DNA of 64,000 nt from Bacteroidota bacterium (lineage in GTDB: Bacteria > Bacteroidota > Bacteroidia > Flavobacteriales > Flavobacteriaceae): positions 124,001 through 188,000 of the forward strand of contig JAHJTN010000012.1 in the NCBI GenBank assembly GCA_018829465.1, given 5' to 3'. How positions within the stretch are numbered: the first letter of the stretch is position 1; every line of letters starts with the position of its first letter. The notes beneath the pieces were generated by a model. That model was not told the DNA's origin. It searched no databases and saw nothing but the letters and a program-made list of their open reading frames with translations. The position numbers and the translations under genes were made by a program. Shown here piece by piece: positions 5,112-63,408 of the stretch.

Positions 5112-7226
5112 CTATTCCAAGGTTTTGATGCCCATGTTATAAAGCGTAAAGGCAAAAACATCTGCCTGCTCGGCTATGGTTTTAGACACGGGTTTTCCGG
5201 CGCCATGACCGGCATTTTTCTCAATCCGAATTAAAGTGGGTGCTGCGCCTGCTTGTGCCTGCTGGAGGGTAGCTGCAAACTTAAACGAATGCGCCGGCAC
5301 TACGCGGTCGTCATGGTCAGCCGTGGTCACCAAAGTAGCCGGATATGCCACGCCCTCTTTAAGGTTGTGCAAGGGCGAATAGCCTTTGAGATACGCAAAC
5401 ATTTCTTGTGAATCTTCGGCCGTTCCATAATCATAGGCCCAACCGGCTCCTGCTGTAAAGGTGTGGTAACGCAACATATCCATCACACCTACGGCTGGCA
5501 AAGCAACAGCAAAAAGTTCGGGACGTTGCGCCATGGTTGCACCTACAAGCAATCCGCCGTTTGATCCACCTCGAATGGCTAAGTAATCGGGCGATGTATA
5601 TTGGTTGTCTATGAGATATGCTGCCGCTGCAATAAAATCATCAAAAACATTTTGTTTTTGCATTTTGGTACCTGCATCGTGCCATTTGCGTCCGTATTCG
5701 CCGCCGCCTCTGAGGTTGGGCACCGCATACACTCCGCCCATTTCCATCCAAACTGCATTTACAATACTGAAAGAGGGGGTCAAACTCACATTAAACCCTC
5801 CGTAACCATACAAAATGGTAGGGTTTGTACCATCTAAAACCAAATCTTTTTTGTGCGTAATAATCATCGGGACGCGCGTTCCGTCTTTGGAAGTATAAAA
5901 AACTTGTTTAGATGTATAAGCATCGCTGTCAAAAGCCACTTTCGGTTTTTGGTAAACTTCAGAAGTGCCGTTTTCGGGGTTAAAGGCGAAAGTGGTACCG
6001 GGTGTGATGTAGTTTGTAAAACTGTAATAAAGTGTTTTGACATCGCGTTTTCCGCCAAATCCGCCGGCCGAACCTACGCCGGGTAATTCAATTTCGCGAA
6101 GTCGGTTGCCTTGATAATCGTATTGAAATACTTGTGAAATGGCGTCTTTCATATATTCGGCGAAGAAATAGCCTCCGCCTTTAGAAATGCCCAGTACATG
6201 TTCTGTTTCCGATATAAAATCTTGCCAGTTCTCGACACCGGGTGCATTGACATCAACCTGAACAACCCGCTTGTTAGGGGCGTTATGGTTGGTAAACAAA
6301 TACAGCGTATTGCCCGATACATCCAGCGGTGAAGTTTCATAATCAAACCCTTGTATAACGGGAACGATAGTTGCGTTGGATTTGGATAAATCCATCAGAT
6401 AGAGTTCGTTTCCGGCTGTGGAAATTGCAGCATTGATAAATAAAAACCGGCCATCTTCTGAAACAGAACCGCCCACATACCTCCTTTTTTGTTCGGGTTT
6501 ATCGCCATAAATCACCATATCTGTAGTTTGTGGCGTTCCTATTTTGTGAAAATACAATTTGTGTTGGTCGGTTTTGGCTGAAAGTTGGCTACCATCCGGA
6601 CGGTCATAGCTCGAATAGTAAAAACCTTCTTCACCACGCCATGAAAGACCACTAAACTTGATATCTGTGAGCGTGTCTTCTATTATTGCTTTGGTTTCTG
6701 TATTAATTACAATCACTTTTCGCCAATCGCTTCCTCCTTCGGAAATGGAGTAAGCTGCCAGTTTTCCGGATTTGGAAAAGCTCAAACCCGCTAATGAAGT
6801 GGTTCCGTCTGTTGAAAAGGTGTTGGGGTCTAGAAAAACCTCTGCTTCACTTTCTCCTTTTTTTCGATACACTACGGATTGATTTTGCAAACCGTCATTT
6901 TTGGTAAAATAAGTGTAGTCTCCTTCTTCAAATGGTGCAGATATGCGTTCGTAGTTCCATATTTTTTCTAGTTTTTGAGCGATGGTATTTCTATAAGGAA
7001 TTTGATCGAGGTAGCCGAAGGTAACTTTATTTTGGGCATCTACCCAAGCGGCCGTTTCTTCAGACAAATCGTCTTCGAGCCATCTGTAAGGATCTGCTAC
7101 GGTCTCGCCAAAGAATGTGGTGGTGCTGTCAGCCTTTTTTGTCACTGGGTAATCTAAACGTTCGGCCTTTTTTTCGTTGCAAGCCATGATGAGTATCAAC
7201 ATTGAGAGAAAGCTTATTTTTTTCAT
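5112..7226 (-). CDS. Prolyl oligopeptidase family lipoprotein (S9A)
   Basis: A serine peptidase that cleaves short peptides after proline. The N-terminus has a lipoprotein signal with lipobox IMAC (Cys16), so the enzyme should be outside the cytoplasm on a lipid anchor. The family opening PYRWLED is present, followed by a seven-bladed propeller region and a C-terminal alpha/beta hydrolase domain. The catalytic Ser is in GGSNGG (about residue 555), with the Asp in [10 protein letters not shown] and the His in NAGHGAGKP. The length of 704 residues is normal. I chose the ATG at 7226 because it gives the signal peptide directly. That start codon lies inside repeat array A, in the stretch ATAAACAGATGAAA, and may be occluded by an RNA hairpin (see findings). 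Confidence 0.95.
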
Positions 7227-7430
7227 CTGTTTATATTTATTGTTTTTCAAAGGTCAGATGGAACACCCTAGGATAATCATTCTCCTGTGTGCAAATTTTT
7301 TACATGGGCGTTTCATCTGTTTATATTATTTGTTTTTATCGGTCATGCTTCGACTGCGCTCAGCACAGGAATGGAACGTCCTTAATAATCATGCCTCTGT
7401 GTGCAAAATTTTTACATGGGCGTTTCATCG
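7217..7430 (-). repeat. Repeat array A anchored on the prolyl oligopeptidase start codon
   Basis: This array has about 2.3 units, with TTTCATCTG copies whose CAT triplets are at 7224, 7314 and 7426 (steps 90 and 112). Read on the minus strand, a unit is: A-rich leader, CAGATGAAACGCCCATG, a 30-base spacer, then GGGTGTTCCATCTG, the inverted partner of the first arm. The first CAT is the complement of the peptidase ATG. The second unit carries a 26-base insert with the core CTTCGACTGCGCTCAGC at about 7349-7366. Two short minus-strand frames start in the units (7316 to 7254, 20 residues; 7428 to 7360, 22 residues), both opening MKRPCK. Related arrays are at 25.4, 40.1 and 48.6 kb. Confidence 0.85.
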
Positions 7431-24374: not shown

Positions 24375-25412
24375 CTAACTATTCGGACGCATCTCGGCAG
24401 GAATTCGACGGTTCATAATGGCAAACCACAATGGGGGCACAAAGGCCAAAACCATAGAAGTTGGATACCCAAAAGGAAGTTGCGGACTGGTTTGGTGACA
24501 ATGCAACAACTGGTATTTTTTATTTGATTTGTAGTGATGGTCGCTATGCCGGGTCAACTCGTACAAAACTATACGTCCGAGTGTGTGGTTGGAATTCCAA
24601 GAATGTATTTCTGCTACGCGCTCGTAGCGCCCCGATGGAAGCTGCTTTCTTCTGAGACCGTAGTGTTCTATATAGTTGATGGTTTCAAGCAGCAGCATGC
24701 CCACTATGGCAGCCACTATAGCGAACAGCAAGGCCGTCTCGCCAAATACCAAATACACGATCAATAAATACATCAGTTGAAAAATGGTAAACATCAACAT
24801 GTCGTTTGTTGTTGAAAGAAAATTTTGATGGTGAGATTTGTTAAGTTTGAGTTGAATTTTCCAGGCTTTGAAGTAGGTGCCAAACACAGATTGGATCCAG
24901 AAGAAATACAAAGCTTGGTTAAATTTTGCTGTTGACGGGTCTTTGGGTGTGCCCACATCTAAGTGATGGCCGTGGTTGTGTTCCACGTAGAAATGCGAAT
25001 ACAAGCTCGGCCAGAGCAATATTTTGGCTAAAAACCTTTCACCAAAAGCATCTCTATGTCCCAATTCGTGCGCTACATTGATGGCGTTGGCGCCGAAAAC
25101 AATACCTGTGCTAATCACAAGTCCTGTAAATTCAAATATACTGAGGTTGTGGTTTGAAACCGTTTGCAGGGCGTACAATAAAATACCGTAAACAATGGGA
25201 ACATTCAAATACAGCATCCAATCGTAAAGTGTCTTTTTTGACAATTTTTCAGCCTTGTCATCCGAAATGTTTTCGGTCTGAAGCGGCAATAAAATTTCAG
25301 CCAAAGGTAGCAACACAAATGCGTAAAAAACGACTGCGTACATTGCCCAGCCTCCAAAATAGAATCCCGTGACGGCTACCACAGGGATAGAGTATGCCCA
25401 TAAATATTTCAT
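24375..25412 (-). CDS. AlkB-type membrane hydroxylase (alkane 1-monooxygenase family)
   Basis: An integral membrane non-heme di-iron oxygenase. All histidine motifs of AlkB/XylM are present: HELGHRDAF (His115, His119), EHNHGHH (His145, His147, His149 and His150), NYIEHYG and LTRHSDHH, followed by LPFGYPTSM and the FVPPLWF ending. Several hydrophobic segments surround them. The length of 345 residues is shorter than Pseudomonas AlkB (about 400). No rubredoxin or rubredoxin reductase gene is in the window, so its electron donor is elsewhere. The start codon is inside repeat array B. Confidence 0.93.
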   Translation of the reverse strand: MKYLWAYSIPVVAVTGFYFGGWAMYAVVFYAFVLLPLAEILLPLQTENISDDKAEKLSKKTLYDWMLYLNVPIVYGILLYALQTVSNHNLSIFEFTGLVISTGIVFGANAINVAHELGHRDAFGERFLAKILLWPSLYSHFYVEHNHGHHLDVGTPKDPSTAKFNQALYFFWIQSVFGTYFKAWKIQLKLNKSHHQNFLSTTNDMLMFTIFQLMYLLIVYLVFGETALLFAIVAAIVGMLLLETINYIEHYGLRRKQLPSGRYERVAEIHSWNSNHTLGRIVLYELTRHSDHHYKSNKKYQLLHCHQTSPQLPFGYPTSMVLAFVPPLWFAIMNRRIPAEMRPNS

Positions 25413-25498
25413 CTGTTTATATTTTTTAAGTATTTGATAATCGGTTTAATATAATCATCCGCCTGTGTGTTAATTTTGCCTTGCCATGGATGTTTCAT
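25409..25498 (-). CDS. Candidate 29-residue leader ORF before the AlkB-type gene
   Basis: An ATG in the second repeat copy opens a frame of 29 codons starting MKHPWQGKIN and ending in TGA, which overlaps the AlkB-type ATG as ATGA. Its start is preceded by the same A-rich leader as the real gene. This fits translational coupling or a leader peptide. The frame is short and lies in repeat DNA, so a chance ORF is possible. Confidence 0.25.
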   Translation of the reverse strand: MKHPWQGKINTQADDYIKPIIKYLKNINR

Positions 25499-25584
25499 CT
25501 GTTTATATTTATTGTTTTTCAAAGGTCAGACGGAACGCCCTAGGATAATCATGCTCCTGTGTGCAAAATTTTTACATGGGCGTT

Positions 25585-25701
25585 TCATCTGTTTATATTA
25601 TTTGTTTTATCGGTCATGCTTCGACTGCGCTCAGCACAGGAATGGAACGCCCTGCGATAATCATACTCCTGTGTGTCAATATTTTTACATGGGCATTTCA
25701 T
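25585..25701 (-). CDS. Candidate 38-residue repeat-encoded ORF
   Basis: The outermost copy of array B opens a frame of 38 residues (MKCPCKNIDT onward) that reads through the CTTCGACTGCGCTCAGC insert and ends in an ATGA overlap with the ATG of the next unit at 25588. Coding status is uncertain; the arrangement of overlapping starts and stops is the point of interest. Confidence 0.2.
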   Translation of the reverse strand: MKCPCKNIDTQEYDYRRAFHSCAERSRSMTDKTNNINR

Positions 25702-38077: not shown

Positions 38078-39385
38078 ATGTCATTTTTTGAAAAAACACT
38101 AGAACTTAAAGGTTTTCCGATTGGGCAAGCGAAACAAAAATTAGCTGAAATTCAATCTATTGCGAGTACAGATTTAAAAAAGTTTCAAGAAAATGCCCGT
38201 TGGGAAATCGTTCGTTTTCACTTGGAAAACAATCCTTTGTATAGCGGATGGATCAATGGGAAACTTCCCAAAAAATGGACAGACCTCCCCGTGATGACAA
38301 AATCCGATCTTCAACAACCCATAAAAAACAGATTGAGCAAAGGTTTTCAGCTCAAAGATGTATATCTCAACAAAACATCCGGATCTTCCGGAAATCCCTT
38401 TTCATTTGCCAAAGATAAATTTAGCCACGCGCTCACCTGGGCCATCATCCTAGATCGGTTTCAAAAAATTGGCATCAAACAAAGTATTGATTTACAAGCG
38501 AGGTTTTACGGAATTCCACTCGATACTTTTCAGCACTTCAAAGAACGACTCAAAGATTTTGCAGCCCGGCGCTATCGGTTTCCGATATTCAACCTTGATG
38601 AGGAAGTGCTTTCTCGGTATGTAGCCTATTTTAAAAAGAGAAAATTTGTGTACCTGAACGGCTATACCAGTTCGATTGTGCTGTTTGCAAAGTATTTACA
38701 GTCTAAAGAAATTGTTTTAAAAAATATTTGTCCCAGTCTGAAATGCTGTGTGGTGACCAGTGAAATGTTGTTTGCCGAAGACAGGAAATTGTTGGAACAT
38801 CAATTGGGCGTAAAAGTTGTAAACGAATACGGAGCGTCCGAACTCGATTTGATTGCTTTCGAGACGCAACCCGGTTTTTGGGAAATCAATACCGATTCGC
38901 TTTTTGTCGAAATACTCGATAACGACAACAAACCTGTACAAAACGGTGAATCCGGAAAAATCGTGATTACTTCGCTCTACAACAAGGCGCATCCGTTTAT
39001 CAGGTATGAAATTGGCGATTTGGGAATCATGGACCCGAACAGTCTGCCAGAAAAACCACTGCTAAAAAAACTCATAGGACGCACCAATGATATGGCGATT
39101 TTGCCCGGTGGAAAAAAAGTGCCCGGCCTCACGTTTTATTACGTCACCAAAAGCATTATGGCGGATGACGGCTTGCTAAAAGAATTCACAGTGACCCAAA
39201 CGGCCTTAGATATTTTTAGAATAGATTATGTAAGAAACCATCCACTCTTGCCTCAGGAAGAAAGAAAAGTGCAAGCCGCCATTCATCTATACGTTGGAGA
39301 AACTGTGCAAGTTATCTTTAAACATCGTGAAAAACTCGTGCGCACTCAAGCCGGAAAACTCAAGCAATTTGTTTCAGAAATTTAG
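38078..39385 (+). CDS. PaaK-like adenylate-forming ligase
   Basis: 435 residues of the phenylacetate-CoA ligase family. The phosphate-binding loop is NKTSGSSGNPFSFAKD (about 105-120), NEYGASELDL is the adenine-binding motif, and RYEIGDLGIMD the later conserved aspartate region. Such stand-alone proteins beside purD are often linked to capsule or exopolysaccharide genes; the substrate here is unknown, and a phenylacetate role is unlikely without other paa genes. It is divergent from purD and overlaps xth by 12 bases, tail to tail. Confidence 0.88.
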   Translation: MSFFEKTLELKGFPIGQAKQKLAEIQSIASTDLKKFQENARWEIVRFHLENNPLYSGWINGKLPKKWTDLPVMTKSDLQQPIKNRLSKGFQLKDVYLNKTSGSSGNPFSFAKDKFSHALTWAIILDRFQKIGIKQSIDLQARFYGIPLDTFQHFKERLKDFAARRYRFPIFNLDEEVLSRYVAYFKKRKFVYLNGYTSSIVLFAKYLQSKEIVLKNICPSLKCCVVTSEMLFAEDRKLLEHQLGVKVVNEYGASELDLIAFETQPGFWEINTDSLFVEILDNDNKPVQNGESGKIVITSLYNKAHPFIRYEIGDLGIMDPNSLPEKPLLKKLIGRTNDMAILPGGKKVPGLTFYYVTKSIMADDGLLKEFTVTQTALDIFRIDYVRNHPLLPQEERKVQAAIHLYVGETVQVIFKHREKLVRTQAGKLKQFVSEI

Positions 39386-40138
39386 GGTTACTCCAACCGG
39401 ACAGTGGTCCGAATGTCGCGCATCGGGCAATATAAATGCGCGCGACAGGTTGCTTTCGAGGGGTTGACTCACCAAAACATAATCGATGCGCCAACCTTTG
39501 TTGTTGTTTCGCGCATTGGCACGATAACTCCACCACGAATATTGGTGTGGCGATTCGTTAAAATGACGAAAAGAATCTATAAAGCCGGCATTTATAAAAC
39601 CGTCAATCCAAGCGCGTTCTTCAGGCAAAAATCCGGAAACGGTGGCGTTTCTCACGGGATCGTGAATGTCAATTGCCCGGTGACAAATGTTGTAATCGCC
39701 ACAGATGATCAATTTTGGAAATTTTGCTTTTAAACCATTGACATAGCTCTGAAAATCGTCCATATATTGAAACTTATGTGCCAAGCGTTCTATATTTGTT
39801 CCGGATGGCAGATATAGACTCATTACAGAACAGTCGTCAAAATCGACGCGTATGTTGCGTCCCTCGGCGTCCATATAATCTATTCCGGTGCCGTATTCTA
39901 CGTGATTAGGCTTTATTTTAGATAAGATAGCCACGCCGCTATAACCTTTCTTTTGTGCGCTAAACCAATACTGATAAGGATAACCGATGTTCGTCAAAAT
40001 ATCTGTTTCTATTTGGCTTTCCTCAGCTTTGATTTCTTGCAGACAAATCACATCCGGATCAGCACTTTTAAGCCATTCTGCAAATCCCTTTTTCATGGCG
40101 GCGCGAATGCCGTTGACGTTGTACGAAATGATTTTCAT
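39374..40138 (-). CDS. xth: Exodeoxyribonuclease III / AP endonuclease
   Basis: A Mg-dependent nuclease of the EEP fold for base-excision repair. It begins MKIISYNVNGIRAAMKKGF; the metal Glu is in CLQEIKAEE (E37 or nearby), GDYNICHRAIDIHDP holds the catalytic Asp-Asn, and the final SDHCPV holds the catalytic Asp-His. The length is 254 residues. The ATG lies in repeat array C in the context ATAAACAGATGAAA, as for the peptidase and AlkB-type genes. Confidence 0.95.
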   Translation of the reverse strand: MKIISYNVNGIRAAMKKGFAEWLKSADPDVICLQEIKAEESQIETDILTNIGYPYQYWFSAQKKGYSGVAILSKIKPNHVEYGTGIDYMDAEGRNIRVDFDDCSVMSLYLPSGTNIERLAHKFQYMDDFQSYVNGLKAKFPKLIICGDYNICHRAIDIHDPVRNATVSGFLPEERAWIDGFINAGFIDSFRHFNESPHQYSWWSYRANARNNNKGWRIDYVLVSQPLESNLSRAFILPDARHSDHCPVGVTLNF

Positions 40139-40340
40139 CTGTTTATATTTATTGTTTTTAAGTGGTCAGATGGAACACCCTAACTCATCATGTCCCTGTG
40201 TGCAAAATTTTTACATGGGCGTTTCATCTGTTTATATTATTTGTTTTTATCGGTCAGATGGAACGCCCTAACTCGTCATGTCCCTGTGTGCAAAATTTTT
40301 ACATGGGCGTTTCACCTGTTTATACTTATTGTTTTTTAAA
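40134..40340 (-). repeat. Repeat array C anchored on the xth start codon
   Basis: Two full units and a partial third: CAT at 40136 and 40225, and CAC at 40313 (steps 89 and 88). The first is the complement of the xth ATG. On the minus strand GGTGTTCCATCTG sits 25 bases before the leader and can pair with CAGATGAAA, which contains the start codon. A 15-residue frame runs 40227 to 40180 (MKRPCKNFAH onward). A hairpin CTTTTGTT-N12-AACAAAAG at 40343-40370, with GACTGCGCCCA in its loop, looks like a decayed form of the insert found in arrays A and B. From 40371 to 40545 I see no gene. Confidence 0.85.
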
Positions 40341-48210: not shown

Positions 48211-48573
48211 TTATTTTATCAATAAAAAATGACTTTTTTTAAGCGCATCAACTTGGTGTTTTACATTGGCTTCAATAAAGACATAATCGCCTGCTTGTAA
48301 AGTTTCTTTAGTGCCTTTTTCATCAGAATATACGGCTTTACCGCTCACGCAAACAAAGAATGCCGGTACTTTAGAAATGTGCTCTTCAAGGCTTTTGTTT
48401 TTTTCAATTTGAAGCGAAATTACTTTCGCATCAGTAGGCTTAAACAAGAGTTGGGTTTGTACTGCTTTTTCTTCGGTGTGCAGGGTTTTTAAGTTCATTG
48501 TATTACTGTTTTTTACGGTGCCACAACTCCAAAGGGTGGCGAATGTTAATGTTACTAATGTTAGTTTTTTCAT
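48211..48573 (-). CDS. Cupin-domain lipoprotein
   Basis: 120 residues. The signal has lipobox TLWSC (Cys17). The rest is a cupin-2-like barrel with SLEEHISKVPAFFVCVSGKAV and GDYVFIEANVKHQVDAL; only parts of the metal-binding motifs (H in EEH and KHQ) are seen. It lies in the export operon between the cytochrome c gene and the ATPase genes. The start codon is inside repeat D. Its role is unknown; small-ligand sensing in the periplasm is an inference. Confidence 0.8.
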   Translation of the reverse strand: MKKLTLVTLTFATLWSCGTVKNSNTMNLKTLHTEEKAVQTQLLFKPTDAKVISLQIEKNKSLEEHISKVPAFFVCVSGKAVYSDEKGTKETLQAGDYVFIEANVKHQVDALKKSHFLLIK

Positions 48574-48690
48574 CTGTTACTATTTATTTGATTTTTAAGG
48601 TCAGATGGAACATCCAATTTTTCATTTTCGTTCTGTGATTAAGAATTATTATTGGATGTTTCATTTGTCTATATATTTAGTTTTTGTTCA
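48571..48690 (-). repeat. Diverged repeat D anchored on the cupin gene start codon
   Basis: One unit with CAT at 48571 and 48662 (step 91). Read on the minus strand the arms are CAAATGAAACATCCAAT and ATTGGATGTTCCATCTG, inverted partners around a 30-base spacer; these sequences differ from arrays A-C, yet the layout is the same. The first CAT is the complement of the cupin ATG. A 26-residue frame (MKHPIIILNH onward) runs 48664 to 48584 and shares the pattern M-K-x-P-(5)-H-R with the units of arrays A and C. Confidence 0.7.
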
Positions 48691-58950: not shown

Positions 58951-58983
58951 AGACCCGAAAGGTTTTGAAAACCTTTCGGGTCT
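58951..58983. repeat. 33-base palindrome 1 (REP-like)
   Basis: Arms AGACCCGAAAGGTTTT and AAAACCTTTCGGGTCT are perfect over 16 bases around one G. It abuts the 3' end of the Y1 transposase gene. Confidence 0.85.
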
Positions 58984-59541
58984 TTAATTAAAATCGTCTT
59001 TAAAATTATCTCCTTCAAACTTTCTGTTTCTATGACAATATAGAAAATTTTCTAAATCGTCAAATAGTTCAATTGCCTGTATTTTATTTAAGAAGGTTTC
59101 TCCATTGGTTTTATAAATCGGAAAAGATGAAAATTTATAGTCTTCAAAATTATCGACAAAACCGTGAATTTGTGGATTTAAATGAACGTAAATAATTGAA
59201 TTCCTCAAATAATCTTCTTCATCAATTTTCTTGCGTTGAAATTGTTTTTGAAATAAACTTCCAGTTCTGTCAAAGGCTTTATTTATTGCTTTGGTATAAG
59301 CATTAAAAAAGTTGGACAACTTTTGAGATGCCGTCCCCGATTCACAATTTAACTGAAGAATTAAATGAAAATGATTAGGCAATAAGACATAAGCTAAAAT
59401 ATTAAAATAAGGAAAGAGGTGCTTCTGCATCAACTTCAGGAAATACATATAATTATCCACGTTCTTAAAAAGATTCTCCTTATTATTACCACGGTTATAG
59501 ATGTGGTAGAAATGGCCTTCTTCCAGTTTTTCGTAATACAT
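58984..59541 (-). mobile_element. REP-associated tyrosine transposase (Y1/IS200-like domain)
   Basis: 185 residues. The HUH motif is H57-F-H59 in VLLPNHFHLIL, and the catalytic Tyr82 is in FFNAYTKAINKAF. This is the RAYT/Y1_Tnp type, a domesticated relative of IS200 transposases that cuts single-stranded DNA at REP-like palindromes. The gene is intact. A 33-base palindrome follows its stop, and a degenerate relative (GACCCGAAAG and CCTTTCAGG) lies upstream at about 59557-59600. Similar palindromes occur at 62066 and 63376. Confidence 0.85.
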
Positions 59542-62065: not shown

Positions 62066-62098
62066 AAACCTCACAGGTTTTGAAAACCTGTGAGGTTT
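62066..62098. repeat. 33-base palindrome 2 (REP-like)
   Basis: Arms AAACCTCACAGGTTTT and AAAACCTGTGAGGTTT pair perfectly around one G, the same length and core (AGGTTTTGAAAACCT) as palindrome 1. It lies between the binding-protein and permease genes. Confidence 0.85.
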
Positions 62099-63375: not shown

Positions 63376-63408
63376 AAACCTCACAGGTTTTTGAAACCTG
63401 TGAGGTTT
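63376..63408. repeat. 33-base palindrome 3 (REP-like)
   Basis: Arms AAACCTCACAGGTTT and AAACCTGTGAGGTTT around TTG, a sequence variant of palindrome 2. A half-site of palindrome 1 (CCCGAAAGGT) lies just before at 63357-63366. Confidence 0.8.

Follow-up and report, generated by a model that had tools for sequence, protein, structure and literature searches.

HEARO elements, which are associated with IscB and IsrB, insert next to ATGA or GTGA and form an RNA, much longer than the sequences described here, that contains an HNH-endonuclease ORF. In insertion sequences of the IS200/IS605 group, according to excerpts of one published account, the target lies beside the left end, and an internal guide pairs, partly through non-canonical pairs, with both the target and the right end (PMC6006769). 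The same excerpts describe REPs as sequences that lie between genes and near a RAYT gene, with a tetranucleotide of the GT[AG]G type at the foot of the hairpin (PMC6006769). TAACTGA direct repeats of the Beggiatoaceae, also present in some Bacteroidetes, occur in many sets close upstream of the starts of unrelated genes; in the portion of the report available, they are proposed to be binding sites of a post-transcriptional regulator, and their mechanism of transmission was not evident to the author (PMC4679880).

We analyzed a 64,000-nucleotide stretch of a Flavobacteriaceae genome (the window) in which an earlier note had reported paired arms before the genes for exodeoxyribonuclease III (xth), a peptidase and a small cupin protein. 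On the minus strand, each of the three genes has its two arms, which pair as claimed. At xth, CAGATGAAA (40133-40141) contains the start codon and TTCCATCTG (40167-40175) is its pairing partner; the corresponding arms lie at 7255-7263 and 7221-7229 before the peptidase gene and at 48602-48610 and 48568-48576 before the cupin gene. Eight of nine bases pair, with a single A-C mismatch, and the spacing is constant across the three genes, at 25 bases rather than the 24 given before. A fourth gene, labeled AlkB-type and described as having lost the partner arm, encodes an FA_desaturase-family protein (24375..25412, minus strand; PF00487); the arm is indeed decayed in the last repeat unit before it, where the region aligns at only 64%. 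The arms are not a leader common to three genes. The start-codon hairpin belongs to the right end of a short mobile element, and we put the probability at roughly 0.8 that this element, which has no protein gene, inserts at start codons (RTGAAA, mostly ATGAAA).

Anatomy and copy number

The arms are only part of a larger structure that the note had not recognized, as each leader is a run of one to three units of the element, all on the minus strand. The unit adjoining xth (40139..40227, 89 nt) reads ATGAAAC...TTCCATCTGACC...ATAAACAG, with the arm at 40167-40175 and the right end CAG at 40139-40141; the ATGAAA of xth itself (39374..40138; TIGR00633, 300 bits) is the right-hand copy of the target. 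A second unit of 88 nt, whose left end is GTGAAAC, lies upstream of it at 40228..40315. The prolyl-oligopeptidase-family gene (5112..7226; PF02897 and PF00326) starts with the ATGAAA at the end of an array consisting of a 90-nt unit (7227..7316) and a 112-nt unit (7317..7428) whose arm is interrupted by a second repeat, CTGAGCGCAGTCGAAG; farther upstream is unique DNA. Before the desaturase gene lie a decayed unit without the arm (25413..25498), a 90-nt unit (25499..25588) and a 113-nt unit with the second repeat inside (25589..25701). The cupin gene (48211..48573; PF07883) has a single 91-nt unit (48574..48664) with the stem AACATCCAAT/ATTGGATGTT. Within the window, the dispersed second repeat CTGAGCGCAGTCGAAG lies at 7348-7363 and 25619-25634 (minus strand).

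Each unit opens with RTGAAA, continues with a stem that returns after a loop, and then runs through TTnCATnTGACC and an A-rich stretch to CAn and ATGAAA. Units are solitary or arranged head to tail in register. To the left of the left-most unit is unique DNA, similarity beginning at RTGAAA, and to the right is ATGAAA with the gene. Neighboring units can be identical (L013, L021).

The element is abundant in its own genome. The 14-mer ATAAACAGATGAAA, with at most one mismatch, has 171 sites in the 3.07-Mb genome versus 2 for the reversed pattern, and a stricter two-part pattern, GTTCCRTCTGACC and AACAGATGAAA separated by 10-30 bases, has 58 matches versus 0 reversed; the stricter pattern had no match in two congeneric genomes searched. 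In the loci of this genome that were examined, single or tandem, we found 104 distinct right ends. A list of 91 rows, less one chance match in coding sequence (L030 at 162) and one double reading (L028), gave 89 units. Plain units make up 67 of them, all of 88-94 nt except one of 103 nt; the other 22, mostly of 111-115 nt, carry CTGAGCGCAGTCGAAG inside the arm. The second repeat occupies a single position within CATCTGACC, which looks like a jump of one repeat into another, and the units that contain it also precede genes. With units of 88-115 nt and upstream ORFs of at most 38 codons, the element has no transposase gene of its own; we noticed no longer, autonomous version in the loci examined. 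Arrays also stand at contig ends of the assembly of this genome (G000), at the starts of C12, C36 and C40 and at the end of C16, where they probably broke the assembly.

Start codons, empty sites and distribution

Of the 104 right ends, 35 lead into another unit, without a single ORF of at least 60 codons opening there. The other 69 are terminal, and 58 of them open such an ORF, in comparison to 41 of all 103 ATGAAA sequences in the window. Eleven terminal ends lack a long ORF: three were read as internal (window 38503 in reverse coordinates, L034 at 1502, and L240), one (L023) was read as cut by the end of the stretch, and seven remain off a long ORF. The search patterns behind most loci prescribe parts of the right end; two checks are less biased, an arm-only search in the same genome and a pattern with three free bases on each side, discussed below. 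With the right end unconstrained, the arm gave 93 distinct matches in the loci examined. For nine of them, ATGAAA was absent from the next 48 nt. By reading, chance accounts for seven of these nine and for two (L244, L249) of the remaining 84, leaving 84 elements, of which 82 end in ATGAAA, one in GTGAAA (L195) and one in ATGATA (L205). On the left side, ATGAAA is the terminal hexamer in 84/91 rows of the own-genome list and in 52/59 aligned units of mainly other genomes, the left ends of the latter having been chosen partly by ATGAAA. Some left ends are GTGAAA, AAGAAA, ACGAAA or ATAAAA.

Special targeting of start codons beyond the hexamer was considered and found unnecessary. Outside the elements, ATGAAA in the window marks 12 gene starts versus 4 intergenic sites, so that about three in four tolerable sites are already starts; the observed figure is 58 of 65 resolvable array ends. 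Insertion at any RTGAAA, followed by purging from gene interiors, would therefore leave the element mostly at starts, and no further targeting need be assumed. The host genes are unrelated. In the window they encode exodeoxyribonuclease III, a prolyl-oligopeptidase-family peptidase, a small cupin protein and an FA_desaturase-family protein; 18 of 20 further hosts had Pfam matches, with 17 different best families.

Comparison of related genomes revealed occupied and empty sites. At ald (alanine dehydrogenase) in one genus, two genomes (G127, G413) have the element inserted between the native leader and the ATGAAA start; three others (G324, G412, G414) have empty sites, the leader, with aligned flanks, running directly into ATGAAA. 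At xth, the arm is absent within 120 nt upstream in all 80 named relatives (Aequorivita, Flavobacterium, Aquimarina and others), 52 of which start the gene with ATGAAA. We also compared copies at unrelated places, using the copies examined (3 to 59 per genome) and excluding pairs with similar downstream flanks. The best pair is 95-100% identical in G000, G179, G111, G390 and G596 and 65-89% identical in G127, G147, G324, G086, G543 and G588. Some copies sit at the same gene in related genomes (L166/L167). At the level of genome comparison, the dispersed and tandem copies, the unique left flanks, the empty sites and the near-identical copies at unrelated genes show that the element moves, and its dispersed copies, empty sites and lack of a transposase place it in the broad class of short, non-autonomous, palindromic mobile elements.

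Local tandem duplication of leaders without transposition would account for identical neighbors and for copies shared at one gene between relatives. We consider it extremely unlikely as the origin of the copies, since it is contradicted by the empty sites and by near-identical copies before unrelated genes; the unique left flanks joined at RTGAAA also speak against it. Tandem duplication may, on the other hand, explain the growth of arrays.

The element is widespread. The pattern CATCTGACC, 8-32 bases, CAGATGAAA was found in 84 of 397 genomes from the family, evidently the Flavobacteriaceae from its named relatives, and the reversed control had 0 matches among the rows listed. In a phylum-wide sample the same pattern was found in 14 of 395 genomes, including four of another family in the same class (G596, with 24 matches) and one of another class (G543, with 4); the matches in G641 and G486 look like chance, and G728 is counted on its match alone. 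The copies read from the other family and class have the same architecture, with the left end CTGAAA in L384 and L387. By these comparisons the element is old, and its presence is shown in several families and two classes of the phylum. Spread by phages was a further candidate that we rejected: 21 stretches of viral contigs contain the two-part pattern, and only one (L375) looks genuine, the other 20 lacking the A-rich linker or the left arm by reading. L375 is a minimal copy at about 5540-5616 of the viral contig IMGVR_UViG_2617271210, with only AACCT-GCATA-AGGTT as its left hairpin; judging from this copy, the loop of the left hairpin seems to be dispensable.

Two hairpins on one arm

The arm, TTnCATnTG, can form either of two mutually exclusive hairpins, one with the left end of the unit and one, that of the earlier note, with the right end and the start codon; the left hairpin covaries at more positions. 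To assess both we aligned 59 units, 58 from other genomes and one (L299) from the element's own; 63 had been found and four were dropped for a doubtful left end (L170, L175, L191, L290). The unit-finding procedure recovered units in 19 of 30 loci, and about six of the rest look like chance or decayed copies by reading. In the left stem, 90.3% of pairs are formed. It contains 82 double-change cells versus a shuffle mean of 20.3 (0/500 shuffles reach 82), and its covariation score is 0.319 versus at most 0.088 for slid versions, figures that lean toward this stem in that the choice of left ends favors stem-forming ends, a selection the slid versions share only partly. In 18/59 units two left-stem pairs are replaced by a tandem G-A/A-G mismatch (columns 8-9 and 63-64 of alignment A1). 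Facing the first A of AAA (column 4 with 68) is A, C or G in 59/59 units; in the own genome, T stands there in 2/97 arm matches. These mismatches and the near absence of T suggest non-canonical pairs in the active fold.

The right stem is formed at 99.6% of pairs in the 59 units, chiefly because its letters are invariant and in part because the search patterns prescribed them. Its one variable pair is C-G in 51 units, G-C in 5 and U-A in 3, and RNAalifold applied to the alignment predicts the right stem only. The pattern with three bases free on each side provided a separate test of the pair that adjoins the start codon. It yielded 125 matches listed in 11 other genomes (own-genome rows left out), 111 with an A+T-rich linker and 104 unique sequences, of which 97 have a Watson-Crick pair between the base before the start codon and its partner. 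All four pair types occur (59, 20, 12 and 6), and 10,000 shuffles average 43 such pairs and reach 59 at most. The compensatory changes that the earlier note had named as a check on its stem are therefore present. From these alignments, the pairing of the right stem with the start codon is real and kept, with one position kept mostly unpaired.

The predicted folds tell against the use that the note proposed for this stem, namely a post-transcriptional switch in which TTCCATCTG hides the start codon of several genes needing common control. In the complete leaders of xth (-21.1 kcal/mol, z -2.1) and the peptidase gene (-22.7, z -4.3), the left hairpin is favored, and the partner of the arm is the upstream start-codon copy, not the gene start. 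Only the cupin leader, one of the three window genes, is predicted to fold as proposed, with both hairpins (-14.7, z -2.7). For the 61-nt stretch originally considered, the fold is on a par with shuffles (z 0.00) and leaves the two arms unpaired with each other; the ald leader of G127 is likewise no better than chance overall (z -0.83). The covariation of the stem and the cupin fold speak for the switch, as does the finding that structure near the start lowers initiation in Flavobacterium johnsoniae, in the excerpted part of that study (PMC6847099). Against it, the host genes are unrelated, the leader is present or absent between congeners at one gene, at xth and the peptidase gene the arm is occupied by a stronger hairpin upstream, and the arm is interrupted in 22/89 units. 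We consider a common switch very unlikely.

A mobile element that has become a translational device in some genes, its arm alternating between masking the old start and the gene start, possibly through ribosomes on the upstream ORF, is rather less improbable, and we still hold it to be unlikely. Both mutually exclusive pairings on the arm are kept, and in 23/91 rows of the own genome a 20-codon upstream ORF ends at the TGA of the arm CATCTGACC. However, mobility alone can explain the pairing, and ORFs opened by the old start share neither length nor frame: they vary between 2 and 38 codons and are just two codons long in 25/59 units elsewhere. Translational coupling through the upstream ORF therefore cannot be a general rule, and a conserved leader peptide was rejected on account of the varying lengths. 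We infer that conservation of the arm chiefly serves the life of the element rather than control of the genes.

The right end does have features of an initiation region. In the excerpts of the F. johnsoniae study, A at -3, -6, -12 and -13 and a lack of structure help initiation, and the A-rich stretch before CAn fits this region (PMC6847099). The C at -3, invariant in the aligned units, is not the base favored there (PMC6847099, in part), and we attribute it to pairing with the arm. From its sequence, the element appears to supply the gene with a new translation start site.

Proposed mechanism and mobilizing enzyme

We propose that the element would move as a folded single strand, with a hypothetical enzyme acting in trans. 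The arm would serve as an internal guide whose pairing partners are the target ATGnAA on the left and CAnATGnAA on the right, and insertion at RTGAAA would leave ATGAAA at both ends. As the right end would itself be a target, new copies may land head to tail, giving in-register arrays. After insertion, the old start would open a short upstream ORF and tend to lie in the left hairpin, while the A-rich right end would act as the new initiation region, so that the gene would keep a start and the insertion would be tolerated.

An IS200/IS605-like guide mechanism is kept, tentatively and at less than even odds, as the most likely on our analysis. As in those elements, a fixed target (mostly ATGAAA) adjoins the left end, and the conserved mismatch opposite ATG-A-AA and the tandem G-A mismatches may correspond to their non-canonical guide pairs. 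In contrast, the element has no linked transposase gene, apparently uses one arm for both ends, inserts at start codons, and has an initiation region in its right end.

The element is also similar to REPs and REPINs in being short, palindromic, non-coding and present in many copies without a gene of its own, and RAYT genes are present locally. A RAYT-type Y1 transposase gene lies at 58984-59541 (minus strand) of the window and is 50% identical to the RAYT at L064. In L064 (571-2025), a copy of the element sits at the start of trpF, 0.8 kb upstream of the RAYT gene, in what looks like a trp gene cluster. The perfect palindrome AGACCCGAAAGGTTTT/AAAACCTTTCGGGTCT at 58951-58983, unrelated to the element, adjoins the RAYT gene of the window. 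Palindrome copies with ACCTCACAGGTTTT at 62068-62096 and 63378-63406 match the one beside the L064 RAYT gene.

That the local RAYT/Y1 transposase moves the element as its REP sequence is, in our view, unlikely. In its favor, PF01797 (Y1 transposases) has matches in 5/5 genomes with copies at least 95% identical versus 2/6 with only diverged copies (G086, G543), relatives of the local RAYT occur in 4/5 of the former, and the trpF copy lies close to one RAYT gene. On the other side, G111 has near-identical copies and no relative of the local RAYT at E<=0.001, G013 and G053 have such relatives and no match to the element pattern, and G588, without a PF01797 match, has a RAYT relative that would turn the contrast into 3/6. 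PF01797 had no match in G127, G147, G324, G087, G588 and G383, all of which carry copies; the complete element was absent from the 29 Y1 loci scanned; and we found no Y1 subclass common to the five genomes with near-identical copies. The element was rejected as the REP of the local RAYTs, as the genes at 58984-59541 in the window and at 1474-2025 in L064 are flanked by other palindromes. Unlike REPs, it ends in ATGAAA and sits at start codons. By reading, the foot of its hairpin is ATGAAA or CAGATG in the 59 aligned units, and the GT[AG]G that defines REPs in the excerpted account was not found there (PMC6006769).

Other described sequences differ more. TAACTGA repeats, as presented in the part of the report available, are heptamers without the hairpins of the element (PMC4679880). 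Against Rfam 15, the window gave no match at the gathering score, and eight loci gave none on the element at E up to 5, so that a known structured RNA family was set aside. The RTGAAA target resembles the ATGA or GTGA target of HEARO elements, which differ in their length and their endonuclease ORF and in the element's lack of an Rfam match. Searches of open-licence literature, including by the conserved letters of the element, returned no description of it, and a search on HEARO gave nothing relevant. As far as these searches go, start-codon insertion with a built-in replacement initiation region is undescribed.

A gene is normally destroyed when DNA inserts at its start codon. In this one genome, a sense-oriented element of about 90 nt has reached dozens of start codons, at metabolic, repair and envelope genes, and its spread is apparently tolerated since it replaces the initiation region that it displaces. 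We suggest, as a possibility that is less likely than not, that it represents a phylum-wide class in which a single internal guide would find the start-codon ATGnAA at either end by pairing and which, bringing its own initiation region, could invade almost any ATGAAA gene without silencing it, through an enzyme not yet linked to such elements. The element offers a testable system for guide-directed insertion, for translation starts without Shine-Dalgarno sequences and for the avoidance of harm by selfish DNA. For annotation, it means that upstream AUGs and 'leaders' in many Bacteroidota genomes are ends of this element.
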